The notes under the pieces are model-generated. The model saw only the letters and a program-made list of their open reading frames with translations, had not been told where the DNA came from and did not search any database. Source: Phragmitibacter flavus (lineage in GTDB: Bacteria > Verrucomicrobiota > Verrucomicrobiia > Verrucomicrobiales > Verrucomicrobiaceae). Taken from it: a stretch of DNA of 64,000 nucleotides. Made by a program: the position numbers and the translations under genes. Positions 15,320-52,074 of the stretch are shown one piece after another; position 1 is the first letter of the stretch, and the number at the start of each line of letters is the position of its first letter. The stretch covers positions 124,001 to 188,000 of the forward strand of contig NZ_VAUV01000004.1 of assembly GCF_005780165.1 (NCBI RefSeq), given 5' to 3'.

Positions 15320-15404
15320 GCCGTTGTGGCGAAATGGTAGACGCAACGGACTTAAAATCCGTTGATGAGCGATCATCGTGTGGGTTCGAGTCCCACCAGC
15401 GGTA
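15320..15404 (+). tRNA. tRNA-Leu (anticodon UAA)
   Basis: 85-base class II tRNA. The anticodon loop cttaaaa sits within the stem acgga/tccgt, the variable arm is 'tgatgagcgatca', the T-arm is 'gtgggttcgagtcccac', and the discriminator is A. CCA is not encoded. Such genes are common integration targets, but no second copy of the 3' end was found in the window. Confidence 0.93.
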
Positions 15405-17030: not shown

Positions 17031-17075
17031 CTATTTTCAGCATAAAATACTCACCCAATATAGAGAACAGCGCAT

Positions 17076-36650: not shown

Positions 36651-36863
36651 ATGCCAAGACCACGACACTACGTGCCCTGCATTGCGCGGAACGTGGTGTG
36701 TGCCCTCTATCACGAAGCCAGACACCGACAGATGCCGATGACTAAGCTCGTGAATGAACTCCTTACTGCTGCCCTCAATGGGCGTGCCAGTTGGCAGACC
36801 GCACACGCCACGTCACCGCCACAGGACCAAAATGACAGCGGCTACCGTGCTCAACCACTGTAG
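36651..36863 (+). CDS. Small ribbon-helix-helix-like protein
   Basis: 70 aa. 'RHYVPCIARNVVCALYHEARHRQMPMTKLVNELLTAAL' reads as a short strand, helix, turn, helix, as in Arc/MetJ or CopG-type DNA-binding proteins, followed by a disordered tail; the comparison is by eye. It is the first gene of the cassette, behind a good promoter and followed by a terminator-like hairpin. A regulator or partition-type role is likely but unproven. Confidence 0.55.
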   Translation: MPRPRHYVPCIARNVVCALYHEARHRQMPMTKLVNELLTAALNGRASWQTAHATSPPQDQNDSGYRAQPL

Positions 36864-36892
36864 TCATCACATCCTCCCTCTCCAGTTCACAG

Positions 36893-36915
36893 ACCCGGCC
36901 TCGTGCCGGGTTTTG
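36893..36915 (+). terminator. Terminator-like hairpin before the second cassette gene
   Basis: Stem acccggc/gccgggt (36893-36899/36905-36911) followed by tttt. It lies between the RHH-like gene and the next ORF, so it is either a terminator or an attenuator. Confidence 0.65.
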
Positions 36916-36976
36916 TCGTTTCTGGGGGCGGAGGTCTCACCAATACAAACCAGACAAACGAAAGGAACATCACATC

Positions 36977-37543
36977 ATGGCAGTCAAACTATCCGCCAAC
37001 TACAGCAAGAAGATCGGCCTCCCCAATTACAGCTCCCACAGCTTCATGGCCTCTGTCGAAATCGAACTGACCGACCTCTCCCAGGTGGAGAGCGAATGTC
37101 AGCGCCTCTACGAACTGCTCCAGCAGTCCGTGGACCGTGAGATCCAGCAGGTGGGCTTCCTCCCGGATACCAAAGGCCACGCCAAGAACGGTGTCAGCAA
37201 TGGCAATGGCCACGTCAACGGCTCCGGGTATCGTAACGGCAGCAACGGTCATACCAACGGCAATGGATCCAATGGTCACCACCGCCCTGCCACCAACGGC
37301 AATGGGAATAGCAATGGAGACCGCTGGGTCTGCACCGAGGGACAGCGTGGGTTCATCCTGCGCATCATCAACGAGCAGCAGCTCGACAAGCAGGAGGTCG
37401 AAGACCTGGCTGGGCAAATGTTCGGCCTCGGGGTCAAGCAGCTCAACAAGATGCAGGCTTCCCAGTTGATTGACGAGCTGCTGGCCAAAGCCGGTAAACC
37501 TCGTCAGTCACGCTGGAGCAACACCGCGACCCAACCCGCATGA
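36977..37543 (+). CDS. Unknown protein with Gly/Asn-rich linker
   Basis: 188 aa. An N-terminal domain (1-65, 'KLSANYSKKIGLPNYSSHSF' then 'VEIELTDLSQVESECQRLYELL') is followed by a ~45-residue low-complexity linker rich in Asn-Gly (residues ~68-112) and a C-terminal helical domain ('QRGFILRIINEQQLDKQEVEDL', 'QLNKMQASQLIDELL'). The C-terminal part looks like a small protein- or DNA-binding module. Its stop overlaps the nuclease start by 4 bases, so the product probably works with that nuclease. No family named. Confidence 0.75.
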   Translation: MAVKLSANYSKKIGLPNYSSHSFMASVEIELTDLSQVESECQRLYELLQQSVDREIQQVGFLPDTKGHAKNGVSNGNGHVNGSGYRNGSNGHTNGNGSNGHHRPATNGNGNSNGDRWVCTEGQRGFILRIINEQQLDKQEVEDLAGQMFGLGVKQLNKMQASQLIDELLAKAGKPRQSRWSNTATQPA

Positions 37544-38373
37544 ACACGCTCGCCCCATCCCCACCTGCTCTCCAGGTGACGGAACGCAGCGAGCACGAAG
37601 TTCTTCAGCGGCTACAGGAAACCGTATCCGCCTCCCGGTTGAACTGTTTCCTGCAATGCCGTTTGAAGTTCTACTTCCGCTACGTTCGGGCCATTCCCAA
37701 GGCGAAGACACCAGCCCTCCATGTCGGCAACTCGGTTCACGCCGCGTTGAAGGCATGGCACAAGGCGCGGTGGCTCACCAAACCGCTCACCCTGAAACAG
37801 CTCCACGAGGAGTTCGTTGAAGCGTGGGTGGAGCCGGACGACGGCAAGTTGCTTCCCGTGCAGTGGGACGGAGAAGAGGAATCAGCCAAACTCACTGGCT
37901 GGCGACTCTGCGAAGTCTACCTGCGCGAAAGTGGCATCGACTTGGGCGAAAAGCCCGACGCCGTCGAAGTCCCGGTGGAAGCCGATCTGGCCAAGCATGG
38001 CCTACCCCGGCTCATCGGCATCCTTGATCTGGTGCAGAAGCGCCGGATCATTGACTATAAAACCACGTCATCCACCCCCAACGCCGATAAAGTAGCTCAC
38101 ACACACGAGGTGCAGACCAGCATCTACGCCGTGCTCTACCGATTCAACACCGGGCATGTTGAGCAAGGGATCGAACTGCACCATCTGGTGAAGTTGAAAA
38201 ACCCCAAGCTCGTCATCACCACATTGCCTCCCATGAGCGATCAGCAACGAACGCGGCTGTTTCGTTTGATGGAGGCCTACCTCGAAGGACTGGACGGTCG
38301 GGATTTTATTCCATCGCCCGGCATGGCCTGTGCCAGTTGCGAATACTTCAACGAGTGTCGCCAGTGGCATTGA
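37540..38373 (+). CDS. Cas4/RecB-like PD-(D/E)XK nuclease with Fe-S cysteines
   Basis: 277 aa. The nuclease core is around residues 155-180 ('LIGILDLVQKRRIIDYKTT', the D...D-x-K pattern with a following Q-motif 'EVQTSIYAVLY'). Cysteines at 36/40 ('NCFLQC') and 264, 267, 273 ('CASCEYFNEC') match the one-N-terminal plus three-C-terminal layout that holds a 4Fe-4S cluster in Cas4 and AddB. It acts on DNA ends or single strands in known relatives. No cas1/cas2 or CRISPR array is in the window, so a DNA-processing role in a mobile cassette is inferred. Coupled to the preceding gene. Confidence 0.85.
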   Translation: MNTLAPSPPALQVTERSEHEVLQRLQETVSASRLNCFLQCRLKFYFRYVRAIPKAKTPALHVGNSVHAALKAWHKARWLTKPLTLKQLHEEFVEAWVEPDDGKLLPVQWDGEEESAKLTGWRLCEVYLRESGIDLGEKPDAVEVPVEADLAKHGLPRLIGILDLVQKRRIIDYKTTSSTPNADKVAHTHEVQTSIYAVLYRFNTGHVEQGIELHHLVKLKNPKLVITTLPPMSDQQRTRLFRLMEAYLEGLDGRDFIPSPGMACASCEYFNECRQWH

Positions 38374-38382
38374 CCTGTTTAA

Positions 38383-38661
38383 TCAGGAGCCATCTCTTTT
38401 GGCGTAGTGCTGTTTGAGCGTCTTTTTCATGACGCTTGGATCTGGCAACAGCTCCTGTGGAAACACGTGGAGTGCCTGCGCCAAGCACAACAGCTCAGCA
38501 TCAACGACACAGCGTATTTGGGTTTCGATCTTGGTGATTCCATTTTCACCGATGTCCCAGCCCAACAGCTGGCAGCGTGCCGCAAGGTCACTTTGCGTCA
38601 GTCCCTTGTCACGGCGAATCGCCTTGATCTTCGGACCGATGATGTTCTGAGCAGCTGTCAT
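38383..38661 (-). CDS. XRE-family repressor
   Basis: 92 aa from ATG 38661. The helix-turn-helix is 'IKAIRRDKGLTQSDLAARCQ', followed by 'ENGITKIETQIRCVVDAELLCLAQALHV'. The frame is open to 38706, but the chosen start lies directly before the HTH domain. It opposes the nuclease gene and is flanked by two identical-type operator palindromes, so it probably represses itself and perhaps the cassette genes on the other side. Confidence 0.8.
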   Translation of the reverse strand: MTAAQNIIGPKIKAIRRDKGLTQSDLAARCQLLGWDIGENGITKIETQIRCVVDAELLCLAQALHVFPQELLPDPSVMKKTLKQHYAKRDGS

Positions 38662-38663
38662 AC

Positions 38664-38725
38664 CTTCCGTAATTGGAAGTTGACGATAGGGGCTCGCTAG
38701 GCACAATGGCTTCCAATATCGGAAG
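38664..38725. promoter_or_regulatory. Twin operator palindromes CTTCC-N6-GGAAG
   Basis: Copies at 38664-38679 (spacer gtaatt) and 38710-38725 (spacer aatatc), centres 46 bases apart, directly upstream of the XRE gene. The identical half-sites and AT-rich spacers are typical of dimeric repressor sites. Confidence 0.6.
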
Positions 38726-38838
38726 GTTTAGTCCAGGTTCCGGCCCGTCTGCTTCCGCTCTTTGGATCTGCCTGTGCCTCGAAGAGACTAGCTCCCCAAA
38801 AACCTCAACCCTCAGTTCAAATCTTACTTAACCAATCT

Positions 38839-39771
38839 ATGACATTCCCCCTTTACCTTATGCTTCTCGTATTGATGATCTCCTGCAAACCTGCGGGAGA
38901 ACCAGTCAGCGTCTCCGAAGCTCCGCCTGAAGAGACGGCTAATGTTGTTCAGAGCTCACCGAAATCCGTTTCGCCACCACCAAGCGTGACCACTTCGAGT
39001 GAAGTCGTCGTAGCTCCAGTGGAGGCAGTGGTTACACCGATGCCTGAACCGGCAACGAAGCCGGAACAGGAACCAAAAAAAGAAGCGCCGCCAGCGCCAG
39101 TTTGGATAACACAGCGGCGCATTTCCAAGATCACTGACAGCGGGGTGCAAGCCATCCCGGCAGGAGTGGTTGTGGAAGTGGTTTCTTCTGACGGCGGAAC
39201 AGTTCGAGTAAAATACAACGCTCTACTGATTGAAGCTCCGCAAGATGCAGTGATCCAGCAAACGCTGGAAACTGAATCCTCAAAAGGTGCTTCAGGCGGT
39301 GGGTCGGATACTCCTGCAAATACGTCGGCAGCGCCTGACAACCATGGCCGCCCAAACGATCTGGAAACCAACAACCAACTCAGTGCCGCCCAGGTGGAAC
39401 TGAGGGCATTGGATGAAAAGCAAAACGCCGAAGTCTACAGCTACCATCAAAGCCTCAGCAAATTGCGCTCGGAAACCAGTTCGAGTCGTTCGGAAGATCG
39501 ACGTGATCGAGCTTCAGGTAGAATCCTGGGACGCGGCGACAAAAGCAAAAAGACTGAAGATCTGGAAGCCAAACTTCAACAGGCCGAGAGTTATCTCGTC
39601 TCGTTGAGGGAGCGGCATGCAACAGAACGTGCTCCGATCGAATTGCGCATCAGTGAACTGCGTAATCAGATCAATCACAACCTCCTGCAATACCACCGTG
39701 AAATGAGTGAGCAACACCGGCGCACTCGTTTAGAAAACAACAACCCCACCATACCGACATCAGCCCCATAG
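38839..39771 (+). CDS. Coiled-coil lipoprotein
   Basis: 310 aa. Lipobox-like 'LMISC' gives Cys at ~16. A long Pro/Val/Glu-rich extended region runs to ~90, then a compact region with 'GVVVEVVSSDGGTVRVKYN' (SH3-like?), and a charged coiled-coil region ~185-295 ('LEAKLQQAESYLVSLRERH'). Probably an envelope-spanning structural protein. It is preceded by the repressor's operator region and followed by a terminator. No family recognised. Confidence 0.7.
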   Translation: MTFPLYLMLLVLMISCKPAGEPVSVSEAPPEETANVVQSSPKSVSPPPSVTTSSEVVVAPVEAVVTPMPEPATKPEQEPKKEAPPAPVWITQRRISKITDSGVQAIPAGVVVEVVSSDGGTVRVKYNALLIEAPQDAVIQQTLETESSKGASGGGSDTPANTSAAPDNHGRPNDLETNNQLSAAQVELRALDEKQNAEVYSYHQSLSKLRSETSSSRSEDRRDRASGRILGRGDKSKKTEDLEAKLQQAESYLVSLRERHATERAPIELRISELRNQINHNLLQYHREMSEQHRRTRLENNNPTIPTSAP

Positions 39772-39805
39772 TGGTCTGACGTCGAGACTGAAAAAAGCAA
39801 GACAT

Positions 39806-39839
39806 CGCCGTCTCTCGATTCCGGGAGACGGCGGTTTTT
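39806..39839 (+). terminator. Rho-independent terminator
   Basis: Stem cgccgtctc/gagacggcg (39806-39814/39825-39833) followed by gttttt. It is the only feature between two lipoprotein genes. Confidence 0.85.
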
Positions 39840-39881
39840 GTATTCACCAATCATCATTCACAGAAAGGAAAACCCAAGTTT

Positions 39882-40148
39882 ATGAAATCGCTTTTAACCA
39901 TTATCAAGGTCATCCTGCTTGCTGCGTTTTTGAGCAGTTGCAAGTGGGCGACCACCTCAAACCTGTTGCCTGGGCAGCAGGACAAACAACAGCGCATCGA
40001 ACATCTCGAAGAGCAAAACTACCATCAGGCCTCCTCCCTCAAACGCTGGCAACTCGCCAGTGTGTCGTTGGGAGCCGGATGTCTGGTGCTCTTGATCGTC
40101 GGAACCGCCCTTGGAGCAAAGACCCGCCATGATGCCGCCCTCCTCTAA
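39882..40148 (+). CDS. Small lipoprotein with membrane helix
   Basis: 88 aa. Lipobox 'FLSSC' (Cys at 20), a helical 'QDKQQRIEHLEEQNYHQASSLKRW' region, then a C-terminal membrane helix 'LVLLIVGTALG'. It overlaps the next gene by ~20 bases, so the two are made together. The layout resembles phage or plasmid entry-exclusion or spanin-like small lipoproteins, but nothing specific was recognised. Confidence 0.65.
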   Translation: MKSLLTIIKVILLAAFLSSCKWATTSNLLPGQQDKQQRIEHLEEQNYHQASSLKRWQLASVSLGAGCLVLLIVGTALGAKTRHDAALL

Positions 40149-40683
40149 CCAACCTCCTTATCTCCATGGCGATGATGAGGATGACAACCACTGGAATGAT
40201 GCCGCAAGTGATCCCCGCATGCGGCCTCCATCCAGTCTGCCGACTCAACCTGCTGGCCTGAAGAGCCTCGTCACGCCTCACTGGTCGCCCCAACCATTGC
40301 CACCACCCCGAGTGGACGTCGAGTTATCAAAGCTTAGTCTGCTGGAGCGCGCCGCAGAGGTATTGCGCTACATGTTCACTAAAGCTGAATATTGGGTCTC
40401 TCCAGGGGGCGCGTTACGTGAATGGGTAAAACTCAACTTGCGCCTGGGTTTGCTCATTGCCATCCCAGCGGTGTTGGTGGCACCAGTGGTTACGCTGTTC
40501 CTCGGACAGTTAAGCGCATGGGTGACCCATCTCACTGAAACCACCTCCAAGCTGGTGTTGTTTCCGCTGTCAGCATTGCTGGTGGTGGGGCTTGTTTGTG
40601 CACTGGTCTATCTGGCCCGGGCACTCCCTTGGGCATTGATGCGGCGACCCTCACGGCGTCCTCCTCATTACTACGATGATTGA
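40129..40683 (+). CDS. Membrane protein of unknown function
   Basis: 184 aa from ATG 40129 (an ATG at 40132 is equally possible; the frame is open to 40111). A Pro-rich, acidic N-terminus of ~70 residues precedes an amphipathic segment and two membrane helices (~105-130 and ~140-165), with a basic end 'RRPSRRPPHYYDD'. It overlaps the preceding small lipoprotein gene. Probably a membrane partner of it. No family recognised. Confidence 0.6.
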   Translation: MMPPSSNQPPYLHGDDEDDNHWNDAASDPRMRPPSSLPTQPAGLKSLVTPHWSPQPLPPPRVDVELSKLSLLERAAEVLRYMFTKAEYWVSPGGALREWVKLNLRLGLLIAIPAVLVAPVVTLFLGQLSAWVTHLTETTSKLVLFPLSALLVVGLVCALVYLARALPWALMRRPSRRPPHYYDD

Positions 40684-40728
40684 GTTCTTCTGAGCCAGAT
40701 CATCGAAACTGCATAGCAACCACAAACG

Positions 40729-40762
40729 CTCCCCGGCTGCCCATGTGTAGCCGGGGAGTTTT
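40729..40762 (+). terminator. Terminator-like hairpin before the clamp gene
   Basis: Perfect 10-bp stem ctccccggct/agccggggag (40729-40738/40749-40758) then tttt. It is only ~27 bases before the next start codon. Confidence 0.8.
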
Positions 40763-40788
40763 CATTAAAACTCAAACCCACTTCAATT

Positions 40789-42255
40789 ATGAACCCCATC
40801 CCACTGCCCATCGCAGAACTTAAATCCGCCCTCACCGGGCTTTCCAAAATCATCAATCGCCACGCCACACTGCCGGCGTTGCAGATGATCCACATCGAAC
40901 GCAACAAGGACGGCTGGCTGTGCCTCACCGGCACCGACCTTGACCGCTTTGTCACCGTTCGTTTCGAGCAGCCATCCCAAGGCGAGCCTCTGGTCGTTCT
41001 CGCTCATTACGACGAACTCCAGCGCCTCACCAAAGCCTGTGCGAAGAATGAAACCCTGCTCCTCTCACCCGGCTCGCCGAATCACACGCTCGTGAAGTTC
41101 AGCGTCGCCAATGGAACCGGAGAAGCCAAGATCAACTCCGTTCCCACAGGCGAGTTCCCTGAAATCCCCAAGGTGCGTGGCAAAGCCGTTCCCTTGCCTG
41201 ACAACATGCGAACCAGCCTCCATGAAGCGATGGCCTGCGCCAGCACTGATGAATCCCGCTACGTCCTGCACGGAGCCTTCATCGACACCACCAAGCCCGA
41301 CGCCCATTACATCGTCGCTACCGATGGCCGCCACCTCTACAGCAGCAACTCATTCAATCTCGCGATGAACGTTCCGCTCAACATTCCTAAACACAAGTTC
41401 CTGGGATGGCGCGACTTCAATCTGGACGGCGAGTGGCAACTCAAAGTCGGCGAACCTCTCAACAAGGACGAATCACCACTGGTGCAAATCAACAGCCGAC
41501 GCTGGAGATTCATTACCAAACAAATCGGCGGCAACTATCCCAACTGGAAACAGGTGGTGCCCGATGCAAAACATACCCGATGCATACTCCAGCTTGATCC
41601 CGGGAAACTGGATCAAGTGCTTCAGATAATCGATTCACTGCCTTGTCACGACGACAAGTTCAGAACGATCGGATTGAGCTGGAGGAACAACCGCCTGTGC
41701 CTGAAGGCCAAGGAACAGATCCTCGGTGAATGGCTGGCGCGTCCGGTTCCCTTGCTCAAAGGCGAAGGGCCTGACATGACGGTCTTCTGCAATCGCACTT
41801 TGCTCACCAAGGCTTTGCAATTCGGATTATCGGCCATTCATCTCATTGATGACATCTCGCCTCTGCGATTCACGTCCGGGGGAAAACAGATGATCGTCAT
41901 GCCGATACGCGCCCAAGCCGCGAACCCATCAGAGAGACCATCGACCACACCTCCACCACGGCGTGAATCCCCGGCACCATTGCCACCTCCATCAGCACCA
42001 CGAACCCCATACCATCCAATACCTACACCACCGCAATCCCCACGCCTTCAACCAGAACCCTCACCAACCGAGGATCCGTTTGAGGAAGCGCTTCAACAGA
42101 TCAACGCCGTCAAAGAAACACTTCGTAGTTCCCTTGGCACGATCAACTCGTTGACCAACACGGTCAAACAAATGCGCGCGGATCGCCGCAGCACCACGCG
42201 AGACCTGCAATCGTTCCGCAACACCTTGCGAACGCTGCAAAAGGTCCCGCTCTAA
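40789..42255 (+). CDS. DnaN-like sliding clamp with Pro-rich and coiled-coil tail
   Basis: 488 aa. Residues 1-~375 resemble the three-domain beta clamp of DNA polymerase III: 'LSKIINRHATLPALQMIHIE', 'TGDFPEIP'-like 'PTGEFPEIPKV' and 'YIVATDGRHLYSS' (family 'ATDGHRL'). The last ~110 residues are not clamp: a Pro-rich spacer (~385-425) and a helical region 'FEEALQQINAVKETLRSSLG'. The host clamp must be elsewhere, so this is a specialised copy carried by the cassette, perhaps to load its own replication or repair factors. Flanked on both sides by terminator-like hairpins. Confidence 0.8.
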   Translation: MNPIPLPIAELKSALTGLSKIINRHATLPALQMIHIERNKDGWLCLTGTDLDRFVTVRFEQPSQGEPLVVLAHYDELQRLTKACAKNETLLLSPGSPNHTLVKFSVANGTGEAKINSVPTGEFPEIPKVRGKAVPLPDNMRTSLHEAMACASTDESRYVLHGAFIDTTKPDAHYIVATDGRHLYSSNSFNLAMNVPLNIPKHKFLGWRDFNLDGEWQLKVGEPLNKDESPLVQINSRRWRFITKQIGGNYPNWKQVVPDAKHTRCILQLDPGKLDQVLQIIDSLPCHDDKFRTIGLSWRNNRLCLKAKEQILGEWLARPVPLLKGEGPDMTVFCNRTLLTKALQFGLSAIHLIDDISPLRFTSGGKQMIVMPIRAQAANPSERPSTTPPPRRESPAPLPPPSAPRTPYHPIPTPPQSPRLQPEPSPTEDPFEEALQQINAVKETLRSSLGTINSLTNTVKQMRADRRSTTRDLQSFRNTLRTLQKVPL

Positions 42256-42287
42256 AATACAAAAACACCACCACATCCCCCAAGCCT

Positions 42288-42333
42288 GAGACCCGCCAGT
42301 GATGCCCGCGCATCCGGCGGGTCTCGGCGTTTT
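42288..42333 (+). terminator. Terminator-like hairpin before the DUF3150 gene
   Basis: Stem gagacccgcc/ggcgggtctc (42288-42297/42316-42325), followed by ggcgtttt. It ends ~30 bases before the next start. Confidence 0.7.
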
Positions 42334-42361
42334 GGGGTGCTGCTTAAACACCCAACCCACC

Positions 42362-43402
42362 ATGACCACCATGTCAGATCGAAAACACCAACTCCAGCAA
42401 ACCCCCGATATCATCACCGCCCTCACCCGCGAAGGCGTGCTCATCCACGTCTCCGTGCGATATTGGCGCGGCTGCCGCAAACTCGACGCACCCGACCTTG
42501 GTATCGAGCCGGGACAGGTCAATGCCCGTCTCGTCAGCCTCGGCCACAAACGACTCCTCCCAAAGGAAACCCTCGCACCACTCGCCCTCATCGAAGGCCG
42601 TGTGCATGCGTTGGTCGACAACAACACGTTCTCGTTCCTTGGCGGGCTCGCCCGATTCATGCCCAACGGCAGAATCGCCGACGTGCAAAGCGCGTTGGCC
42701 CAGTTCGAACGCGAGTTCCAACAGGCCCGGCAACAGTTCCTCAACCAGTATCAGCACAATCGCGACACCGCCTTGCGGGAATGGACTGACATGGCCCAGC
42801 GCCTGTCTTCGGATCCCGACCAACTCATCCACACCATCCAGCAGTCCTACCCTCCAGCCCACAAACTGGAGAAGACCTTTGGGTTTGATGTGCGCATGTT
42901 CCAGGTCAGCGCTCCACAGGACATCTCCCTGCAAATGCTCGACCTCGGTGAGCAAAACGCCATCGCCGAAGCCCGCCGACTGGCAGCCAATGAAGCCAGC
43001 ACGCGCATGCGTCAGGAAACCGAAACGTTCATCGCTGAGTGTGTCACCACCCTGCGACAGCAGACGGCACAGCTCTGCGATGAAATGCTCGCTTCCATGC
43101 AAAGCGGAAAAACCGACGGCGTGCATCAACGCACCCTCAACCGCTTGAGCAACTTCATTGACCAGTTCCGGCAACTTAACTTCGCCGGCGACGACGCCAT
43201 GGAAGCTCAACTCGAAGGCATCCGCCGTGAACTGCTCAACCGCAGTGCCGCCGACTACCGGCAGAACCACGCCGCCCAACAAAACCTCACCCGAGGTCTT
43301 GAACGGATGCGCGATCACGCCCGGCACCTTGCCCAACAAGACACCCGTGAACTGGTGGAACGCTTCGGCCAACTCGGCCGCCGCCAACTCCAGCTCAAGT
43401 AG
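42362..43402 (+). CDS. DUF3150-like protein
   Basis: 346 aa from ATG 42362 (42371 also possible; the frame is open to 42299 through the hairpin). 'VSVRYWRGCRKLDAPDLG', 'LVSLGHKRLLPKETLAPLAL' and 'FLGGLARFMPNGRIADV' match the DUF3150 pattern, followed by long amphipathic helices. DUF3150 proteins are found on plasmids and integrative elements beside AAA and von Willebrand-type proteins. The function is unknown; a regulator of an ATPase machine is plausible given the AAA gene downstream. A short repeat 'atcctttagcctt' (x2) lies after the stop. Confidence 0.75.
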   Translation: MTTMSDRKHQLQQTPDIITALTREGVLIHVSVRYWRGCRKLDAPDLGIEPGQVNARLVSLGHKRLLPKETLAPLALIEGRVHALVDNNTFSFLGGLARFMPNGRIADVQSALAQFEREFQQARQQFLNQYQHNRDTALREWTDMAQRLSSDPDQLIHTIQQSYPPAHKLEKTFGFDVRMFQVSAPQDISLQMLDLGEQNAIAEARRLAANEASTRMRQETETFIAECVTTLRQQTAQLCDEMLASMQSGKTDGVHQRTLNRLSNFIDQFRQLNFAGDDAMEAQLEGIRRELLNRSAADYRQNHAAQQNLTRGLERMRDHARHLAQQDTRELVERFGQLGRRQLQLK

Positions 43403-43467
43403 CAGATGCTCTGCCTTCATAACCCTCAGTTTTATCCTTTAGCCTTCATCCTTTAGCCTTTTGAAAC

Positions 43468-43848
43468 ATGTCTCACTTCGTCACCATTCAAACTCAGATC
43501 CGCGATGTGGCTGCTTTGCAAGATGCCTGCACCGAACTCGGTGTCGGCCTTGAGCAGAACGCCAACGCTCGCGGGTTCCTTAACCAGCAACGCCACGGCG
43601 ATTACGTGATCCGCCTTCGCGGTCCCTACGACATCGCAGCCAAGAAGCTCACTGACTCCGACTCCTATGAACTCTCCACCGACTGGTGGGATGGCCACGT
43701 GGAGAAGGAAGTCGGCAAAGACTACGGCCACCTGCTTCAGCTTTACGCCGTCCACAAGACCATGCGTGAAGCCCGCAAGAAACACCTGCGTGTCACCCGA
43801 CGCCAGGAACAGGACGGCAACATCAAACTCATCCTCGGAGGTTCATAA
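43468..43848 (+). CDS. DUF1257 (Ycf35-like) protein
   Basis: 126 aa. The opening 'SHFVTIQTQIRDVAALQDAC' and 'YVIRLRGPYDIAAKK' match DUF1257, the family of chloroplast Ycf35. Its biochemical role is not known. In cyanobacteria and planctomycete-type genomes it occurs with DUF2997 and Ycf46-like ATPases, and the same trio is present here within 2.6 kb, supporting a common machine. The next gene follows after 6 bases. Confidence 0.85.
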   Translation: MSHFVTIQTQIRDVAALQDACTELGVGLEQNANARGFLNQQRHGDYVIRLRGPYDIAAKKLTDSDSYELSTDWWDGHVEKEVGKDYGHLLQLYAVHKTMREARKKHLRVTRRQEQDGNIKLILGGS

Positions 43849-43854
43849 CAATCC

Positions 43855-44094
43855 ATGCCCACGTCACACCACCGGCACCGTCAGCAGCAGAAGCAAACCC
43901 TTGAAATCACCATTGCTCCCGGTGGCGCTATTGCCATCGAAGCGTCCGGGTTCAAGGGCAGCGACTGCGAACAAGCCACCCGCGATCTGGAACAAGCCCT
44001 CGGCATCGTGCGTCAACGCACACGCAAGCCCGAGTTCTACCAGAAAGCGGCCAACCAAACCCATCAGTCCAACCAACAAACCCAAGGCACATGA
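43855..44094 (+). CDS. DUF2997 protein
   Basis: 79 aa. The core 'LEITIAPGGAIAIEASGFKG' followed by 'C.....DLEQALG' is the DUF2997 pattern. Function unknown. It follows DUF1257 closely, as in other genomes, and overlaps the next small gene by 4 bases. Confidence 0.8.
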   Translation: MPTSHHRHRQQQKQTLEITIAPGGAIAIEASGFKGSDCEQATRDLEQALGIVRQRTRKPEFYQKAANQTHQSNQQTQGT

Positions 44095-44309
44095 ACCCAC
44101 GCATCTCCCAAGTAAACTTCGACCGGCAGGAACGTCCGTTCCGCGCCGAGATCCGCACCCCGTTGGGTGTGGTGGAAGTGCAATGGCGCGATGTCAGTGG
44201 CGACCTGTGCTGGTTCACCAACGGCAGCGGCGAGGCCAAAAAGCTCGCCGTTCCCGCCATTCAACGACTCAACCGCATGCTCACATGTCTGGATCAAGTC
44301 ACGTCTTAA
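44091..44309 (+). CDS. Small conserved-looking protein
   Basis: 72 aa, beta-rich at the start ('AEIRTPLGVVEVQWRDVSGD') with a C-terminal helix ('AVPAIQRLNRMLTCL'). No family named. Its 4-base overlap with DUF2997 and ~25-base overlap with the next gene mean it is co-translated with the DUF1257/DUF2997 pair. Confidence 0.65.
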   Translation: MNPRISQVNFDRQERPFRAEIRTPLGVVEVQWRDVSGDLCWFTNGSGEAKKLAVPAIQRLNRMLTCLDQVTS

Positions 44310-44578
44310 CCGTGCAACCGGGTGGTGTGGTGGTCAGCCTGTTTACGGAAGCCATCGACTTCCAACAACTAGGCAAACTCCACATCACCCGCGCCAGCAC
44401 CATCGAGTTCAACCCGGACACCCAGCAATGGGAGGTCCGTCTTGAAAACTCATCCCAGGTTTCGTTCGCGAACCCTTCGCGTCAGACCTGCCTCGACTGG
44501 GAGCATCAGCATTTTAACACGCTGATGCTCAATCAACCTCCACCCCTTCCATCACCACCACCAACCACCATGCCATAA
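44285..44578 (+). CDS. Small protein of unknown function
   Basis: 97 aa from ATG 44285 (the open frame extends to 43667 but only by reading through the DUF1257/DUF2997 genes). It has a beta-rich body ('VLTVQPGGVVVSLFTEAID', 'STIEFNPDTQQWEVRL') and a Pro-rich end. Seven bases before the AAA gene, so probably in the same transcription unit. No family recognised. Confidence 0.6.
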   Translation: MSGSSHVLTVQPGGVVVSLFTEAIDFQQLGKLHITRASTIEFNPDTQQWEVRLENSSQVSFANPSRQTCLDWEHQHFNTLMLNQPPPLPSPPPTTMP

Positions 44579-44585
44579 ACTCATC

Positions 44586-46082
44586 ATGAAAACCCAACTT
44601 GAAACCTATGTGAGGGCCGGTTATCCGGCCCTTTTTGTTATCACCGCTGAAGAGCAACGTGCCGAAGCGGAAATCAAATCTGCCGCCGAATCCCTCGACC
44701 GACGTCTCCACGTCTGGAGCGCCACCCAAGGATTGCTGGACACCAGCAACGGTCATGTCCGCGATGTGGCCGATCCCATGGAAGCCCTCGACGCCATCGA
44801 AGCCTTGGAAGAACGCCGGATCATCATCCTGCGCGACTTCGCTCTTTACCTTCAGGATGGCGACCCCATGCTGATCCGTAAACTGCGCGATGGCCTGCAA
44901 CGAGCCAAAGCCCAAGGCAAAACGCTCATCCTGCTTGGCTGCGAACACCCACTGCCCAAGGAAGTCCATCACGACATCCTCAAGCTGCCGTTCGTTCTGC
45001 CCGACAAAACCCAACTCGCTCAGGTCCTCCAAGGCATCCTCAGTTCTGCTGAGCAACCAACGCTCAGCCCCGAACTCGAAGAAGCCGCCATTGCAGCCGC
45101 CACCGGCCTCACGACCATCGAAGCGGAGAACGCGTTCGCGTTGTCCCTGGTCGAGTCCAACACCATCACCCCGGCCATCATCGCCCGGGAGAAAGCCAAC
45201 GCCCTCAAACAGGGTGGCCTGCTTGAAGTCGTCGACCACCAGCCATCCCTGGATGCCATCGGTGGACTCGACGCCCTCAAGAAATGGCTACTGCAACGGC
45301 GGCACGCGTTCAGCCAACGCGCCACCGACTTCGGCCTGCCTCCCCCCAAGGGTCTGCTGATCGTCGGCGTCCCCGGCACCGGCAAATCCCTCACCGCCAA
45401 AGCCAGCGCCTCAGCGTTTGGGTTGCCACTGCTCCGACTCGACGCCGGGCGCATCTTCGCCGGCCTGGTCGGTCAGAGCGAAGCCAACCTGCGTCAGGTC
45501 ATTCAAACTGCCGAAGCCATCGCACCCTGCGTTCTTTGGATGGACGAGCTGGAGAAAGCCTTCGCTGGAAGTCGCGGTTCATCCACCGATGGCGGCACCT
45601 CCGCCCGCGTGTTCGGATCGTTCCTCGCCTGGATGCAGGAGAAACAGAAGCCGGTGTTCGTGGTGGCCACCGCCAACGACGTGTCTCAACTCCCACCCGA
45701 GCTCCTCCGCAAAGGCCGGTTCGACGAGTTGTTCTTTGTGGACCTGCCCAACCAGCGGGAACGCACCGACATCTGGGACATTGTCATCGCCAAATACGGA
45801 CGCAAACCCACGGACTTCGACAGCGTCCGCCTCGCCCGCGGCACATCGACGTTCACTGGAGCCGAGATCGACCAGTGCTTCGTGGATGCCATGCACCGCG
45901 CGTTCGCCGAGAACCGCGAAGTCGCTGAGTTCGACCTTGGCATGGCCATGGTGGAAACCGTCCCCTTAGCGAACCTGATGGACGAAGACATTGCCCGCCT
46001 GCGCCGCTGGTCCGAAGGCCGCGCCCGCCACGCCACCCACGCGGAGCGTTCCCCCAACGCCACCCGCCAGCTGGATCTGTGA
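44586..46082 (+). CDS. Ycf46-like AAA+ ATPase
   Basis: 498 aa. The N-terminal ~240 residues are the Ycf46-type domain ('[17 protein letters not shown]', '[10 protein letters not shown]'). The AAA module is near 259-470: Walker A '[13 protein letters not shown]', Walker B '[12 protein letters not shown]', sensor '[20 protein letters not shown]' and the arginine finger '[12 protein letters not shown]'. It is FtsH/CDC48-like but lacks a protease domain. Together with DUF1257 and DUF2997 it forms the cyanobacterial-type trio. Role unknown; protein or complex remodelling is the family expectation. A perfect hairpin terminates it. Confidence 0.9.
44612..44639 (+). promoter_or_regulatory. Terminator-like hairpin inside the AAA gene start
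   Basis: gggccgg-ttat-ccggccc followed by ttttt, overlapping codons ~10-18 of the AAA gene. Its position inside coding sequence suggests attenuation if ribosomes stall or lag. Confidence 0.5.
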
Positions 46083-46303: not shown

Positions 46304-49300
46304 ATGCCAGCTCGACACATAATTTGCGGTCCCTTTGCCAACCAGAGCGAAGAGCGGGCACTTGAGCGTTTAAAATGCATCCTCAGTAGCGATTGGGTGC
46401 TTTTGTCAAACCTGTCGCTCATTACTGGCCAAGACAGACAACCCAGTGAGATTGATGTAATTGCCATTGGGCCCCCGGGAGTTTACGTGATTGAGGTGAA
46501 ACATTGGGACGCTGCCTGGGTGCGAGATAATGCAGACCGAGCAGAAGATGAGGCACGCATTCTGAAGTCCAAGACGGAACGTGTTGGCACACTTCTTCGC
46601 CGGGAATTGTCAGGGATCAAACTCCATGCTGAGCAGTGTTTCTTATTTACAAGAGAATCAAATCAAGCACCGCCCCCAAAGCTGGCAGGAGCACCGATAT
46701 GGACGCTGAAATCTTCTCAGGCGGAGTTAAGCAAGCTCTTACAGAGGTCCTATTCACCAAATCAGGTCCAGCTTATCGTTGAAGCCATTCAACCAAGGGC
46801 GCGTCTTCATACTGATGGCAAGTTGCGCACAGTCGGCGACTACCAGAACATGGAACTCATATCGCCCAGAGAGGACCGATTTCACCGAATATTTAAGGCT
46901 CTGCATAGGCGGACCCGTGAAAAGGTGATTCTTCATTTGTATGATCTTTCGGACACACAAGACAAGGAACCTCGAAGGCTGGCCGAGCGTGAATTCAGGG
47001 TTCTTCAAGAACTGCAAAAGTGCCGCTACGTTCCCAAAACTCGAGATTCGTTCCAAGACGTCCCGGGATTTCCTGGTGAAGTTTGCATGTTTTCAGTTTT
47101 TGACCCGGGTGCCCCATCCCTGAAAAAACGAGGAGCTGATCCCAAATGGTCTTTAGAAGAACGCATCCAGTTCGCCGTAGCTGCAGCAGATGCCCTCGCG
47201 GAGATTCATGGCTCCAAGGATGAGGATGACACCCAGATCGTGCACCGGAATTTGTCTCCAGAATCAATTCTAGTGGGCGCGAAAAATCGACCTATCTTCA
47301 CTGGCTTCGACGTTGCGAGAGCGGCGTTCACACGCACTTTGCCGCCGAGGCGAATAGACACCTTACCTCCGGAGTGGATCGCACCCGAGCTTGCCGGTGA
47401 GGACTTGTCGAAAGCGTCAATGTGTTCAGACGTCTACTCTCTGTGTGCCTCGCTAAGGAGTGCTCTGGGGGGTGAGGATGCCGCCGATTTGCTTTTGTCC
47501 AAAGGCCTCACCGACGACCCTGCATTGAGAATTTCTGCCGCTGATTTGAAAGCGGAACTGGAACTTTTGATCAAACCAGTGGAGGCTACAGCCCTTGTTC
47601 ATAATAGAGAACCCCATGTCCCACGGGCCGAATTCTGGTGCGAAGGCACCCAAGTTTTATTCAAAGGACGAAAATTGGAAATCATTGCCAGTCTCGGAGC
47701 GGGTGGTATCGGGAGAACCTTCAAAGTTGGGGAATTGAGTTCCAATCCTGATGAAGGTTATTATGGAGAGTTTGTCGCCAAAGTGATTTTCACGAAAGAA
47801 GCTGGCGACAAGTCTTTGGAAGCATATCGCAAGGCAAGGCAACATTCTCAGCACTCTAGGTTGGCAACAGTCTTTGAGATTGCTGATGAGTGGCAACAAG
47901 ACAGGGTAATGGCGCTGCTCCAATGGGTGGAGCGCGAGCCGTTGTCAGGTCTGCGGGATGGGCTGGCCGGGCTGGCGGTTCAAGAGGCCGGGCTTTCTAG
48001 TATTGCTGAACTTTGCGCACGATGGCTACGTGATGGATGCCAAGCGCTCGCCGCTTTGCACACCGCCGGGTTGGTTCACGGGGACGTAAGTCCTAGAAAC
48101 ATGATTTATAGCCCCGATGGGTTGGTTCTCACCGATTATGATCTAGTAAGGCCATCTGGCAAAGAGGGATGGACCACCGGAGCTCACCCATTCAGTTCCC
48201 CGGAGTCTGAGCAAAACGGCTTACATACCGGTTCAGACGATGTCTATGCGCTTGCTGCGAGTTTATACTCCGTGCTGTTCGACACCGACACCCCGTTCCG
48301 ACAATCAAATGGAGCTCAACTAAAAGCGGGAGGACTTAACTGGTCTGGGGATGCCCGTGAATTACTCGGCGAGATGGTTGAATTTTTGGACCGTGCCACC
48401 AATCCAGATCGTGATCAGCGGTTCAAAGATGCGCTTGAGGCCGTGCAGTGGCTAGAGCAACACACTGTCACATCGGAGCCAAGCTCAACAGAGGAAAAAA
48501 CACCTCCGCAACAAGAGCCAGTTCCCCCCGCTGATGTCAAGACGCCAAACGTTGTCCCGTGGCTGAATCAACTGCTTTCCGTCTACCCCGGTTCACCGGG
48601 AGGAAACATTGAGACGCGAGGCCTAGATAGTGATTTTGCGACCGCCACCTACGTGAGAACCGCACTTGAAGATGAGTTGGTCGGAGATATTCGATCTGGA
48701 AAACTCCGACTTCTGATTCTTTGTGGAAATGCTGGGGACGGGAAGACGGCGCTTTTGCAGCGCATCGGTCAGGAATGCGGGGCGGGAAAAGTTCCTTCCG
48801 ACCAGCGGGTATGGACACATGTCACTTCAGATGGGATGGAACTCAGAGCCAATCTGGATGGCTCAGCCGCATGGAAAGAGCGCTCTGCCGATGAGTTGTT
48901 GGACGAAATCCTATTGCCTTTCCTCGACGGCGCACCCCTCGAACGGAGAACGCATTTGCTGGCCATCAACGACGGGCGCCTTCTCCAGTGGCTGGACGAA
49001 AAGCAGGCTACAGGAACGAAGGGGGAGCTCCTCGAATCGTTAGCGGCATTTCTATCGAATGATGCAGATACCGAGCTTCCTCCACACCTTCGGTTTATCA
49101 GCCTGAACCACCGATCGCTTGTTGGAGGGCGCACTGGTGACGGGCAGTGCGAATCGGATTTCATCAATGACTTGATAACTTCTCTTATCGGGGGCGATCA
49201 GGCAAAGGCAATATGGAATCCTTGTCTATCGTGCACAGCCTGGGATCGCTGCACCGCAGGACCGATGGCACACTCGCTGATGGACGGGAGCTCAGCACGA

Positions 49301-50302
49301 GGCTCTCGGATTCGGGAGCGCATCCACGAGGCACTCCAAGCAGTTCATCAGCGCGGGAATGTCCACATTACGGCACGCGAGCTTCGAGGAACGCTTAGCT
49401 ACATTCTATTTGGAGTTCATTCGTGCGTTGAGCTACATGCGAATTTCCACACGAAGGATGGAAATGGAGCTTCAATTACCCGAATCGGTGACATGGCGTT
49501 CAATCCGGATTCTCCTTTTCGACAGGGGGATCTGCTCCGGGAATTGTCTGAGCTAGATCCCTCACTGGAGGCTCATAGCAACCTTGACCGACACCTCCTT
49601 GCGAAGACCCCGTTCCCTCACGGAGCGAAAAATGATGCAGCTCGTTCACACCTTGCGTCATTGCGGAGGTCAGCATTTTTCGAGGCAACAACCGACGATT
49701 TGGAAAAACTTGGTGGCAGCGCTGACGCCCTTGGTCTTGCCGGAGGGCGTTATCTTTCGGATTTTCGAAAAGCCAGCGACGGATCTTCCGCAGAGAATTC
49801 CATTCTCTGCGAAAAAATTGTTAGGGGGATTTCTCATCTAGAAGACCTGCCACTGTTAGCGCTCAGGAGGATCGGCAAGGTGGCGTTGCGCCTCCCCACC
49901 AGAACACCCACGGAAACCAAATTCTGGACACAACTGGATTTGGAACATTTTCGTCTGGAGCCGGAACTTCCTGCGAATTTAGACAAAGCGGTGCCACGAC
50001 TGGCACGTCAAATCCGACTAATCTTTACCCGTCCCGACAACGCCGAAGGTGAGTCTCTGCTGATGGGCTACCAGTTGTTCTCGGTTCTTCTCCAGTTAGA
50101 GTCGGGAGAGCAATTAGCAGACGTTCGAAGCGACGATCTATTCGCCAATCTCCAAATTTTCACCCAACGTCTTGCTCAGGAAAGCAGTCGTGCTCTCTTC
50201 GCTTGGAATCCCAAAGAGGATGAAAAAATATTCTCACTTCAACTCGAAGCGCGGGAAGACTATCATGCACTCGCGATTACCTCCGACTCCACAATTTCAT
50301 AA
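46304..50302 (+). CDS. NERD nuclease-double kinase-P-loop ATPase protein
   Basis: 1332 aa. NERD domain (1-~115, 'EIDVIAIGPPGVYVIEVKHW', the D...E-x-K nuclease pattern). Kinase-like 1 (~170-430) has 'HRNLSPESIL' and 'GFDVA' where catalytic HRD and DFG Asp should be, so it is probably a pseudokinase. Kinase 2 (~445-720) keeps 'GAGGIGRTFKV', 'FVAKVIF', 'HGDVSPRNM' and 'DYDLV', so it looks active. The C-terminal ATPase has P-loop 'GNAGDGKTALL' at 808 and a likely Walker B 'HLLAINDGRLL' near 885. NERD plus kinase recalls PglW of phage-growth-limitation systems; the fused ATPase is extra. First gene of a coupled operon. A defence role is inferred. Confidence 0.85.
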   Translation: MPARHIICGPFANQSEERALERLKCILSSDWVLLSNLSLITGQDRQPSEIDVIAIGPPGVYVIEVKHWDAAWVRDNADRAEDEARILKSKTERVGTLLRRELSGIKLHAEQCFLFTRESNQAPPPKLAGAPIWTLKSSQAELSKLLQRSYSPNQVQLIVEAIQPRARLHTDGKLRTVGDYQNMELISPREDRFHRIFKALHRRTREKVILHLYDLSDTQDKEPRRLAEREFRVLQELQKCRYVPKTRDSFQDVPGFPGEVCMFSVFDPGAPSLKKRGADPKWSLEERIQFAVAAADALAEIHGSKDEDDTQIVHRNLSPESILVGAKNRPIFTGFDVARAAFTRTLPPRRIDTLPPEWIAPELAGEDLSKASMCSDVYSLCASLRSALGGEDAADLLLSKGLTDDPALRISAADLKAELELLIKPVEATALVHNREPHVPRAEFWCEGTQVLFKGRKLEIIASLGAGGIGRTFKVGELSSNPDEGYYGEFVAKVIFTKEAGDKSLEAYRKARQHSQHSRLATVFEIADEWQQDRVMALLQWVEREPLSGLRDGLAGLAVQEAGLSSIAELCARWLRDGCQALAALHTAGLVHGDVSPRNMIYSPDGLVLTDYDLVRPSGKEGWTTGAHPFSSPESEQNGLHTGSDDVYALAASLYSVLFDTDTPFRQSNGAQLKAGGLNWSGDARELLGEMVEFLDRATNPDRDQRFKDALEAVQWLEQHTVTSEPSSTEEKTPPQQEPVPPADVKTPNVVPWLNQLLSVYPGSPGGNIETRGLDSDFATATYVRTALEDELVGDIRSGKLRLLILCGNAGDGKTALLQRIGQECGAGKVPSDQRVWTHVTSDGMELRANLDGSAAWKERSADELLDEILLPFLDGAPLERRTHLLAINDGRLLQWLDEKQATGTKGELLESLAAFLSNDADTELPPHLRFISLNHRSLVGGRTGDGQCESDFINDLITSLIGGDQAKAIWNPCLSCTAWDRCTAGPMAHSLMDGSSARGSRIRERIHEALQAVHQRGNVHITARELRGTLSYILFGVHSCVELHANFHTKDGNGASITRIGDMAFNPDSPFRQGDLLRELSELDPSLEAHSNLDRHLLAKTPFPHGAKNDAARSHLASLRRSAFFEATTDDLEKLGGSADALGLAGGRYLSDFRKASDGSSAENSILCEKIVRGISHLEDLPLLALRRIGKVALRLPTRTPTETKFWTQLDLEHFRLEPELPANLDKAVPRLARQIRLIFTRPDNAEGESLLMGYQLFSVLLQLESGEQLADVRSDDLFANLQIFTQRLAQESSRALFAWNPKEDEKIFSLQLEAREDYHALAITSDSTIS

Positions 50303-50304
50303 AT

Positions 50305-52074
50305 ATGAGCCAGCGACAAGCATTCATAGACGCCCTCGGGAAGGATATGGCAAATCTTCTTTGGACGGCTAATACGCTTCAGGTGTATCCCGCCACATTG
50401 CAGAATTTCTCTGTAGGTTCACTACTTCCTGCGGTCATCTATATGTTCCGTCGTGGCTTTCGTCGCGGGCAGGGAAGTTTTTCACAGGCATTTTCCTTTG
50501 GGGCAAACGTGCGTCCGACCATATGGTCTGTATCAGGTAAGCTCAGCGAACTTGGACAATTTGAGGGATTCGATTCCAATACCTCCAAAGATATACTTGG
50601 AGATTTGCTTCTTGCAGGTGCGTTGGAGAACAAGGGTGGCGCAGAGGGCCACACCAGCGAAGTGCAACGGGCGTTTCCCGCCCATTACTACTCGTCCTGG
50701 CTAGACCTGCCACAAGCTGTCGCTAACCTCAGATTTGTTCCTGAAATGTTGGTCGCGTTGCTCGCCAATCAGAAAGATGTCGAGAACGTTGGCATCTCAG
50801 ATGCCGAAGACTTCACTGTCGGCAGGAATCCGGAACGAAACCCTCTTTTAAGAGTTTTTGAGAAGGGCGTAATATACGGAAACAATGCCGCGATATTGGC
50901 TGGCGGTGAGGCCGATAAAGTTGACGGATTGGCGGATTTCAGTTTAGAAGAATGGCTCATGATTCAGTTGGGCCGCACTTGTGGTCAAGCCCCTGAGAAG
51001 CTTCGGGCGTCTCCTTCAATCTCTGCGAATCAACCCATTGCAACCGGGTCGGCGGGAATTTTCAGACAGGACATGGAGTTTCTGCTTAGACATTATGGAC
51101 TTACCATCCCACGACGGGGCCTAAGTCCGATGCTAGAGTGCCTGATAGGCATTGGTTTGTGGCAAACTTTTCTATCCTCACTTGGCGCTGTCATCTATTG
51201 GGAGCGCCACCACAAGCTGCCGGACCTGGAACATTGCCATTCATTTCATATGTTCGCAGACGCTTCGAGTGGTTCGGATCCCCGACTGAGGGATCTAGCA
51301 GAGGCTTCGGGCTTCGAACTGATCCGATTCATTCATGAAGCAACCAACGCATTGGCTGTTGTGAGAGTTTCAGATGCAGCAGCACGCGATAACCTAGACC
51401 TCGTAGACCACGTTCCGAATGTTCGCGGCTTAGCCGATTGGTTAAATTTGCTCGGACTGGTAAGAAGTGGGGGGCATTCTGCTTCAGCATTTTTCCGTCA
51501 AGATGTATTCGCAAAATGCAATCGTCTGCGCAACGGGTTAATTCAGCAGAATGAAGCTTCCGAAGCTGCTGAACTTTTGGCATCTCCTTTTGCCAGACTA
51601 AACCCCACTCGGGCTTTGGCTGAAGCATTAACATTGTCCATGGGAAGCAAAATGCTGCAAACAAAATATTTCATGTTTTTAGATTCCGCAGGCATGGTAA
51701 ATGAACCTCACGGACTCCTCAAAAAGCGAAAAGTTTCAAGGAGGTTGGAATCAGGTAGAACACAGCGGGGTGACGCTCGATCAGTGATCCTCACAAACGC
51801 ATTGCTGGACACGCTTGTGCATACGCAACTGGCGAAAATTGGCGGCAGCGTATCTTTCGAAGCCTTCCTTCATGCTCTTAAAGAAGACTATGGAATTCTG
51901 GTCGATGAAGCACCCAACGGTGTGGCGGCGGATCGTGAGGACTTGCTACGAAACCGCAGCATCCTAGAAAAACGACTGAGAGATCTAGGCCTACTTGTAG
52001 GAGTTAACGACGCTGAATCAATGAAACGCTTGCGAGCCCGCTACCGCACATCAGAAAATCAACCCACGTCATGA
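50305..52074 (+). CDS. Unknown middle subunit of the NERD-kinase operon
   Basis: 589 aa, no recognised domain. Mostly helical, with 'YPATLQNFSVGSLLPAVIYMF' and 'GFRRGQGSFSQAF' near the N-terminus, a central 'RGLSPMLECLIGIGLWQTFL', and a C-terminal 'FLHALKEDYGILVDEAP' that could be a winged-helix-type end. It begins 2 bases after the kinase stop and overlaps the next gene by 4 bases, so the three proteins are made in step and probably form one complex. Its position between an ATPase and a HerA-like protein is where DptG sits in DptFGH operons; identity with DptG was not shown. Confidence 0.75.
   Translation: MSQRQAFIDALGKDMANLLWTANTLQVYPATLQNFSVGSLLPAVIYMFRRGFRRGQGSFSQAFSFGANVRPTIWSVSGKLSELGQFEGFDSNTSKDILGDLLLAGALENKGGAEGHTSEVQRAFPAHYYSSWLDLPQAVANLRFVPEMLVALLANQKDVENVGISDAEDFTVGRNPERNPLLRVFEKGVIYGNNAAILAGGEADKVDGLADFSLEEWLMIQLGRTCGQAPEKLRASPSISANQPIATGSAGIFRQDMEFLLRHYGLTIPRRGLSPMLECLIGIGLWQTFLSSLGAVIYWERHHKLPDLEHCHSFHMFADASSGSDPRLRDLAEASGFELIRFIHEATNALAVVRVSDAAARDNLDLVDHVPNVRGLADWLNLLGLVRSGGHSASAFFRQDVFAKCNRLRNGLIQQNEASEAAELLASPFARLNPTRALAEALTLSMGSKMLQTKYFMFLDSAGMVNEPHGLLKKRKVSRRLESGRTQRGDARSVILTNALLDTLVHTQLAKIGGSVSFEAFLHALKEDYGILVDEAPNGVAADREDLLRNRSILEKRLRDLGLLVGVNDAESMKRLRARYRTSENQPTS

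Follow-up and report, generated by a model that had tools for sequence, protein, structure and literature searches.

The window analysed here is a stretch of 64,000 nucleotides from Phragmitibacter flavus (contig NZ_VAUV01000004.1, positions 124,001 to 188,000), and at 36651-46082 it contains a cassette of genes that on balance appears to be the recombination and DNA-end-processing core of integrative islands of Verrucomicrobiota, which insert at tRNA genes and carry a tyrosine integrase and variable cargo, defence genes included. All the cassette genes except one lie on the forward strand. The first, g0 (36651..36863), encodes a small protein with a ribbon-helix-helix look by eye and without a match in a Pfam search; it opens the cassette in many loci. 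It is followed by g1 (36977..37543), whose product has a small N-terminal domain, a Gly/Asn-rich linker and a C-terminal domain like that of Redbeta, according to alignments, a structural model, Foldseek and VIA-align, and by a Cas4/RecB-like PD-(D/E)XK nuclease in which four cysteines are invariant (37540..38373). The gene on the reverse strand (38383..38706) encodes a helix-turn-helix protein, XRE-like by eye, with a tblastn relative in one other locus (L058). Next come g3 (38839..39771), a putative lipoprotein judged by its signal by eye, for which no Pfam family scored above its own cut-off; g4 (39882..40148), a small putative lipoprotein or membrane protein with relatives in several loci; and g5 (40129..40683), a putative membrane protein by eye. 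A beta-clamp paralogue with a Pro-rich linker and a conserved tail (40789..42255) precedes a DUF3150 protein (42362..43402; PF11348, 5.1e-25 for the frame from 42299), a DUF1257 protein of the Ycf35 type (43468..43848; PF06868, 1.8e-11, and an alignment), a DUF2997 protein (43855..44094; PF11211, 6.5e-16) and two small conserved proteins, g10 (44091..44309), which in several loci of the type called A below precedes DUF932, and g11 (44285..44578), immediately 5' of the last gene. The latter encodes a CDC48-like (Ycf46-type) AAA+ ATPase (44586..46082; Pfam AAA, 4.9e-30; phrog_8638, 1.8e-134). The clamp, nuclease, DUF3150, DUF1257, DUF2997 and AAA+ genes had been named in a preliminary description of this DNA, and all of them were found where it had placed them.

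Regarding the nuclease, it matches PF12705 (5.8e-29), and in 15 aligned sequences C40, C264, C267 and C273 are invariant, as are D163, D172, K174, Q192 and Y196, so that D-(x8)-D-x-K and Q...Y are both intact. With these invariant residues, an iron-sulfur cluster is plausible; judged from its sequence, the protein keeps the intact PD-(D/E)XK residues, as in Red/SynExo exonuclease, and the corresponding activity is predicted. The earlier label of Cas4/RecB-like nuclease thus stands as regards the family and the four cysteines, but not as an assignment to Cas4 itself, for which the score was below the curated NCBIfam cut-off (TIGR00372, 33.2 bits vs 65).

The clamp matches the polymerase processivity factors of PHROGs (phrog_947, 2.6e-25) and, by profile, solved beta clamps (best 5.7e-22); despite a score below the cut-off of the DnaN equivalog (TIGR00663, 65.2 bits vs 137.65), its sequence identifies it as a beta-clamp relative. 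Ordinary clamps usually end at the motif [VI]MPxR, and the new tail that had been ascribed to this protein is real: 13 of the 14 aligned members continue for 109-132 residues beyond that motif, which had no match as searched in the remaining one (L051). A TDG-type motif is presumably part of the ligand pocket. Contig C13 of this genome holds another clamp-like match. We judge it unusual for integrative islands to carry a sliding clamp whose extra tail is conserved, and such a protein could show how these elements recruit polymerases.

As for the AAA+ protein, profile matches place it with the CDC48/FtsH-type ATPases, with scores below the curated cut-offs for FtsH (TIGR01241, 97.7 of 600 bits) and CDC48 (TIGR01243, 112.8 of 802.65); the gene expected from the preliminary description is present, and Ycf46 is applied to it as a name. 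A fold was sought for the DUF3150 protein, whose model had a predicted local distance difference test score (pLDDT) of 73.5; it is given no function here because the model had no PDB match at E <= 0.001.

The conservation of the cassette was followed first through the clamp, whose homologues were searched in 57 genomes, its own included; strong homologues (E <= 2.9e-60) occurred at 29 places in 18 of them, up to four per genome. Comparison of 20 clamp regions (L039-L058) revealed a common core made of g0, g1, the nuclease, often g4 and g5, a WGR ligase (PF01068 plus PF05406), the clamp and DUF932, with mostly unrelated flanks; relatives of g0 were present in 19 of these regions and those of g5 in 15. 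The core has gaps: L046 holds only ligase, clamp and DUF932, L050 is without the nuclease, and in L054 the nuclease is broken; L058 carries a tail other than DUF932. A scan of genome contigs with a g1 profile then matched 135 stretches, of which 112 encode relatives and 80 were kept; the counts given below rest on these 80 loci, which partly overlap the 20 clamp regions (the latter were not added) and include broken or partial copies, while many contigs end early. Among the partial copies, L120 has a g1 frame of 45 residues, and L123, on the same contig as L054, has a broken nuclease. By taxon title, 78 loci belong to Verrucomicrobiota, one to the 'PVC group' and one to 'Bacteroidetes'; the last (L096), on a 6.8-kb contig, is perhaps mis-binned.

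In 73 of the 80 loci the nuclease is the next recognised gene after g1; the conserved functional module suspected in the preliminary description, whose gene order was searched for elsewhere, was thus found, and the contrary case of ordinary chromosomal genes with no conserved association fails, as that order recurs among these related loci. The ligase occurs in 36 loci and the clamp in 45, where the next recognised gene is DUF932 (24 loci), DUF3150 (12) or none (9). Overall, DUF932 was found in 31 loci and DUF3150 in 14, never together (0 of 80), and the AAA+ gene in 10, all of which also hold DUF3150, DUF1257, DUF2997 and g11. The cassette has, therefore, two alternative and mutually exclusive tails, DUF932 (type A) or DUF3150-DUF1257-DUF2997-g10-g11-AAA+ (type B), and that of the window is type B. 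Type A cassettes occur, for example, in Brevifollis gellanilyticus NBRC 108608 (L128) and in Verrucomicrobium sp. BvORR034/BvORR106 (L126, L123). It follows that the DUF1257/DUF2997/Ycf46 trio is not the defining part of the cassette; it belongs to one of two tails set on a core of g0, g1, nuclease, in many cases the WGR ligase, and clamp. As an aside, one locus has a 346-residue open reading frame (ORF) on the opposite strand between DUF3150 and DUF1257, HipA-like by eye (L153:11210-12250).

The trio is also a portable sub-module, because its genes occur on viral contigs and plasmids. On three viral contigs, of which L032 and L033 appear to be a single virus, the order is DUF1257-DUF2997-AAA+; two of these contigs also have g11, and one has DUF3150. 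In three of four plasmid regions an annotated DUF2997 gene lies near the AAA+ gene, and two of those three also have an annotated DUF1257. Among plasmids, the AAA+ protein has its best relative (42%) on pTRESU01 of Treponema succinifaciens (L035), in a setting of VgrG/baseplate genes reminiscent of contractile injection systems.

Such plasmid and viral copies, together with the element's own clamp and ligase, fit a module for replication or maintenance, with which the excised island would replicate like a plasmid for a time, served by the clamp, ligase and nuclease, and recombination between copies would be a by-product; DUF3987 proteins near some copies (two of 112 upstream ORFs) point the same way. 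However, Pfam and PHROGs revealed no polymerase or initiator among the cassette genes, and a clamp by itself cannot initiate replication, so that this explanation is judged rather unlikely.

The host island of the cassette is delimited by a tRNA-Leu(UAA) gene (15320..15404, forward strand; ARAGORN, Rfam), the integration target. The left attachment repeat, attL, has 67 bp (15341..15407, forward strand) and recurs without mismatch beyond the window, at positions 243259-243325 of the contig (C4), 103.9 kb away; this repeat accounts for 48 of the 82 exact 20-mers that recur more than 15 kb apart in a 164-kb stretch. The island therefore spans about 104 kb (139341-243325), and the window from 15341 on corresponds roughly to its first half. 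A tyrosine integrase is encoded at 241988-243250 (PF00589, 46.8 bits with a cut-off of 27.1), with 9 bp between attR and the start of its longest frame. That the window has no integrase was rightly noted in the preliminary description: none was recognised there, the integrase just described being 54 kb beyond the window. The same holds for the proposal of a mobile-type element, for which the boundary test returned the repeat pair and the integrase; the element is, however, far larger than the cassette, and both its ends lie outside the block first described. As for conjugation, the relaxase family PF03432 had no match in the genome and PF12696 matched only contig C5, so that neither of the two families searched was found in the island.

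The guanine-cytosine (GC) fraction is 0.575 on the left of attL, 0.528 between the repeats and 0.575 on the right of attR. The block had been called GC-rich, which is correct with respect to its own island (0.572 in the cassette, 0.523 in the rest of the island) but not to the flanking chromosome; foreign GC was consequently rejected as a trait of the cassette. This equality with the chromosome would suit ordinary repair genes that lie beside tRNA hot spots by chance, as would the 57 of 65 loci that have no integrase within 6 kb upstream. Such an explanation is very improbable, considering the attachment repeats, the several copies per genome in unrelated surroundings and the patchy distribution of g1, whose profile is found in 63 of 387 genomes of the phylum at E <= 1e-5, many of these matches being weak, and in 5 of 59 genomes of one genus, that of genome G043 and probably Akkermansia, at E <= 1e-10.

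Other islands were examined by extending to 45-120 kb all those of the 20 clamp regions in which a tRNA was found, five in number. An island at tRNA-Leu(UAG) (G025:C7) has an attachment repeat of 79 bp with 97.5% identity, 71 kb apart, and another at tRNA-Leu(CAA) a repeat of 66 bp with 98.5% identity, 88.8 kb apart; in these two, integrase ORFs lie 40 and 108 bp before attR. The 3' region of tRNA-Leu(UAG) is present in three copies on G025:C7 (5124, 76108, 89791), as if two islands stood in tandem. Among the 80 loci, a tRNA on the same strand occurs within 5 kb upstream in 18, in 12 of which it is at most 420 bp from the first cassette gene; three further upstream tRNAs are on the opposite strand, and none was found within 5 kb downstream in any of the 80 (142,084 bases examined vs 338,095 upstream). 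As related genomes are included, the 18 loci are not 18 independent insertions. In the probable Akkermansia regions no tRNA is immediately upstream of g1. Of the 65 loci with at least 3 kb of upstream sequence, 8 have an integrase homologue no more than 3.3 kb upstream, and Pfam recognised seven integrases among the 112 upstream ORFs.

Signs of exchange come from genome G175, which has five g1-nuclease-DUF932 cores (L183-L187, copies a to e), each behind a tyrosine-integrase-like gene. The g1 and nuclease genes are 92.9-98.5% identical among the five copies, and the common stretch begins 1-2 bases after the integrase stop in four of them and 513 bases after it in copy a. The integrase genes without their last 200 nucleotides share 58-65% identity in nine of ten pairs (80% for b/d), and the stretches after DUF932 share 56-60% in nine of ten pairs (71% for a/d); as a baseline, the stretches upstream of the integrases align at 58-63%, and most integrase and downstream pairs do no better. 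Copy e is like b and d only in the last 190 nucleotides of the integrase (91-96%), an apparent breakpoint of recombination inside that gene; the five integrase proteins are all related to one another (23-80%). The pattern is that expected from homologous exchange at the cassette. A search for direct repeats between the 1.5 kb upstream of each integrase and the downstream side, in 20-kb regions, turned up nothing of at least 15 bp other than a single 15-mer in copy e.

In the genus of G043, the stretch from g1/nuclease to DUF932 varies between genomes: Mrr/ResIII and HATPase genes precede DUF932 in AK043a (L169 plus L170), and the corresponding genes are HsdR in AK263a and AbiEii in G158. The 3' end of the nuclease gene occurs twice in AK274a, the second time across the cargo (28178-28572; L178:8178-8572), as if the cargo had entered by recombination at that gene.

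The g1 protein may provide a further link to recombination. Its model has a mean pLDDT of 74, with a confident C-terminal helical domain, and in a Foldseek search of 350,542 PDB chains the five best matches were all the C-terminal domain of Redbeta (probability 0.94-0.97, E 0.5-0.7), in complex with lambda exonuclease or the SSB tail. VIA-align gave Z scores of 8.2, 7.8 and 7.5 over 58-59 residues, the next row for this domain having 4.2. What gives weight to this likeness is that the next gene encodes an exonuclease-type protein in 73 of the 80 loci.

A resection and annealing set like that of Red is proposed for the cassette, because the Redbeta-like g1 adjoins the nuclease and because the Red-like genes of the SXT/R391 elements promote the formation of hybrids. 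The genes with their conserved order, the ends and integrase of the island, the exclusive tails and the mosaic copies are observed; the steps and purpose of the set are what we infer from them. The four-cysteine nuclease would resect DNA ends, and g1 would use its Redbeta-like C-terminal domain to link single-stranded DNA with the nuclease and the SSB of the host. The private clamp of the element, with the WGR ligase in many relatives, would recruit fill-in and sealing, and the tail module of either type is predicted to complete or regulate the reaction, with the AAA+ ring perhaps remodelling the complex. As the DUF3150 set and DUF932 alternate at one position, the two tails may do equivalent jobs by different means. 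As an outcome, the excised element would be repaired, and islands would swap integrases and cargo by homologous exchange.

The island contents, known from a scan of part of its ORFs, include several defence-like genes. Immediately after the cassette, three adjacent genes (46304..57023, forward strand; Pfam, PADLOC) encode a NERD-kinase with a weak NACHT match, an SspG-like protein and a DndH/HerA/Mad8-like ATPase; they resemble several PADLOC systems at once, none clearly, and are possibly a separate defence system. A HipA toxin-like kinase follows as cargo (57450..58757, reverse strand; PF07804, 1.9e-34). Beyond the window, the same island has a complete-looking Gabija pair (GajA 2.6e-222, GajB 1.5e-203; L189:12662-16233) and TIR-domain proteins. 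Near the tRNA end lies an RHS-repeat protein of 4907 residues (15675-32194 of the window), and an IS200-type (Y1) transposase-like gene separates it from the tRNA; Pfam also recognised an RCC1-repeat protein in the island. A tally of the first gene of at least 300 residues after DUF932 in ten loci (L041-L050) gave one defence-like protein (L044, Schlafen-AlbA/NB-ARC/TPR), a RecD-like helicase (L042) and a subtilase (L050); the other seven fell into no clear defence family. In L057, which was added to the ten, the corresponding gene had no Pfam match. Further neighbour proteins, chosen by size, were helicases and an OLD-like ATPase.

The location among defence genes raises the case that the cassette itself is a defence system, in which nuclease, clamp and AAA+ protein would sense foreign replication. 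The AAA+ domain does match the models of the anti-phage ATPase IetA/IteA, far under the IteA cut-off, and the nuclease is weakly like the DruK and Cas4 models; on the other hand, the clamp, DUF3150, DUF1257 and DUF2997 had no PADLOC match at E <= 0.01, and the core recurs while its neighbours change, which is the behaviour of a backbone and not of cargo. A defence role for the cassette is thus improbable, and the choice among replication, repair or defence left by the preliminary description narrows, by inference, to recombination or repair, with the defence genes as neighbours.

Several observations weigh against a recombination core of tRNA islands, which is preferred with reserve. Within the window, the cassette is 21 kb from the tRNA; no same-strand tRNA occurs within 5 kb upstream in 62 of the 80 loci, no integrase-like ORF of 280-560 residues within 6 kb upstream in the 57 of 65 loci mentioned above, and the remaining upstream ORFs are mostly of ordinary families. 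In three of the five extended tRNA loci no usable attachment repeat was found before the contig end, and G025:C7 has a second repeat further on (49 bp, 93.9%) with no integrase noticed nearby. No empty site was found among the relatives examined, none of which has matching flanks on both sides: the protein of the right flank is present in G012, G001 and G018 (73-77% identity), with no left flank or tRNA-Leu(UAA) alongside, and beyond these and G000, six of 38 genomes match it weakly or not at all. Enrichment of defence genes beside the cassette is not shown by the ten-locus tally, which has no matched control. Finally, the Foldseek E values of 0.5-0.7 are high, the g1 sequence profile had no Redbeta match in PDB at E <= 10, and g1 has no recognisable annealase domain and a small N-terminal domain with no convincing fold match. 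As the note of VIA-align itself states that a common arrangement lets helical bundles reach such Z scores, and as the profile finds no Redbeta, the modelled likeness of g1 to the exonuclease-binding domain of Redbeta is suggestive only.

The proposed recombination core of tRNA islands would have wider implications. The gene combination, its restriction to Verrucomicrobiota in the g1 scan and the alternating tails are undescribed among the literature matches listed, judged by titles and abstract starts and with most subscription journals outside the coverage, and by the same parts none of the papers found on DUF1257, DUF2997 or DUF3150 is about mobile elements. Recombination on mobile islands would be tied to DUF1257, DUF2997 and, by name, Ycf46, families that plastids and cyanobacteria also have, as well as to DUF3150 and DUF932; if this is true, the Ycf35-DUF2997-Ycf46 set gains a role in DNA recombination. 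As a marker, the g1-nuclease pair would reveal integrative islands and what they carry throughout Verrucomicrobiota, the probable Akkermansia among them. A bolder version, which we put forward tentatively and regard as doubtful, is that of a cargo-shuffling machine, with nuclease, Redbeta-like adaptor, private clamp, ligase and alternative tails, that swaps integrases and defence genes between the tRNA islands of one phylum and employs the Ycf35-DUF2997-Ycf46 set in recombination.

Neither integrative islands that sit at tRNA genes nor integrative elements carrying Red-like genes are new in kind. Tycheposons have an end-located integrase, flanking direct repeats and diverse cargo. GInts, defined by a ginABCD operon with three integrases (PMC5385486), share with this island a site-specific integrase located at one end, direct repeats on both flanks and diverse cargo; unlike them, the island has one integrase recognised beside attR, where part of the ORFs were scanned, and its common backbone is a recombination cassette. 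In cyanobacteria, a DUF2997-ycf35-ferredoxin cluster has been described (PMC4284462); the adjacency of DUF2997 and DUF1257 is the same, whereas in the cassette no ferredoxin was recognised and the pair sits between DUF3150 and the CDC48-like AAA+ gene, on a mobile island. The IncC plasmid IP40a (NZ_KX156772) carries a relative of the AAA+ protein (32% identity) and, no more than 1 kb from it, a gene annotated as DUF2997. Two of the neighbouring genes were tried as further tail members and rejected: the match of the 130-residue one to DUF1257 is weak (hhalign E 0.012, probability 3.6), the 377-residue one has none to DUF3150, and neither has a Pfam match at 0.01. Also close are lambda Red and the SXT/R391 integrative and conjugative elements (ICEs), whose Red-like genes s065-s066 (bet-exo) are reported to promote hybrid ICEs (PMC2786100). 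The cassette differs from both in that g1 has no recognised annealase domain, in its Cas4/RecB-like nuclease and in its additional clamp, ligase and AAA+ or DUF932 genes, and the two conjugation families searched (PF03432, PF12696) were not found in the island; in common with them are an exonuclease gene adjoining a partner whose C-terminal domain may be Redbeta-like, an integrative element and signs of exchange between elements.

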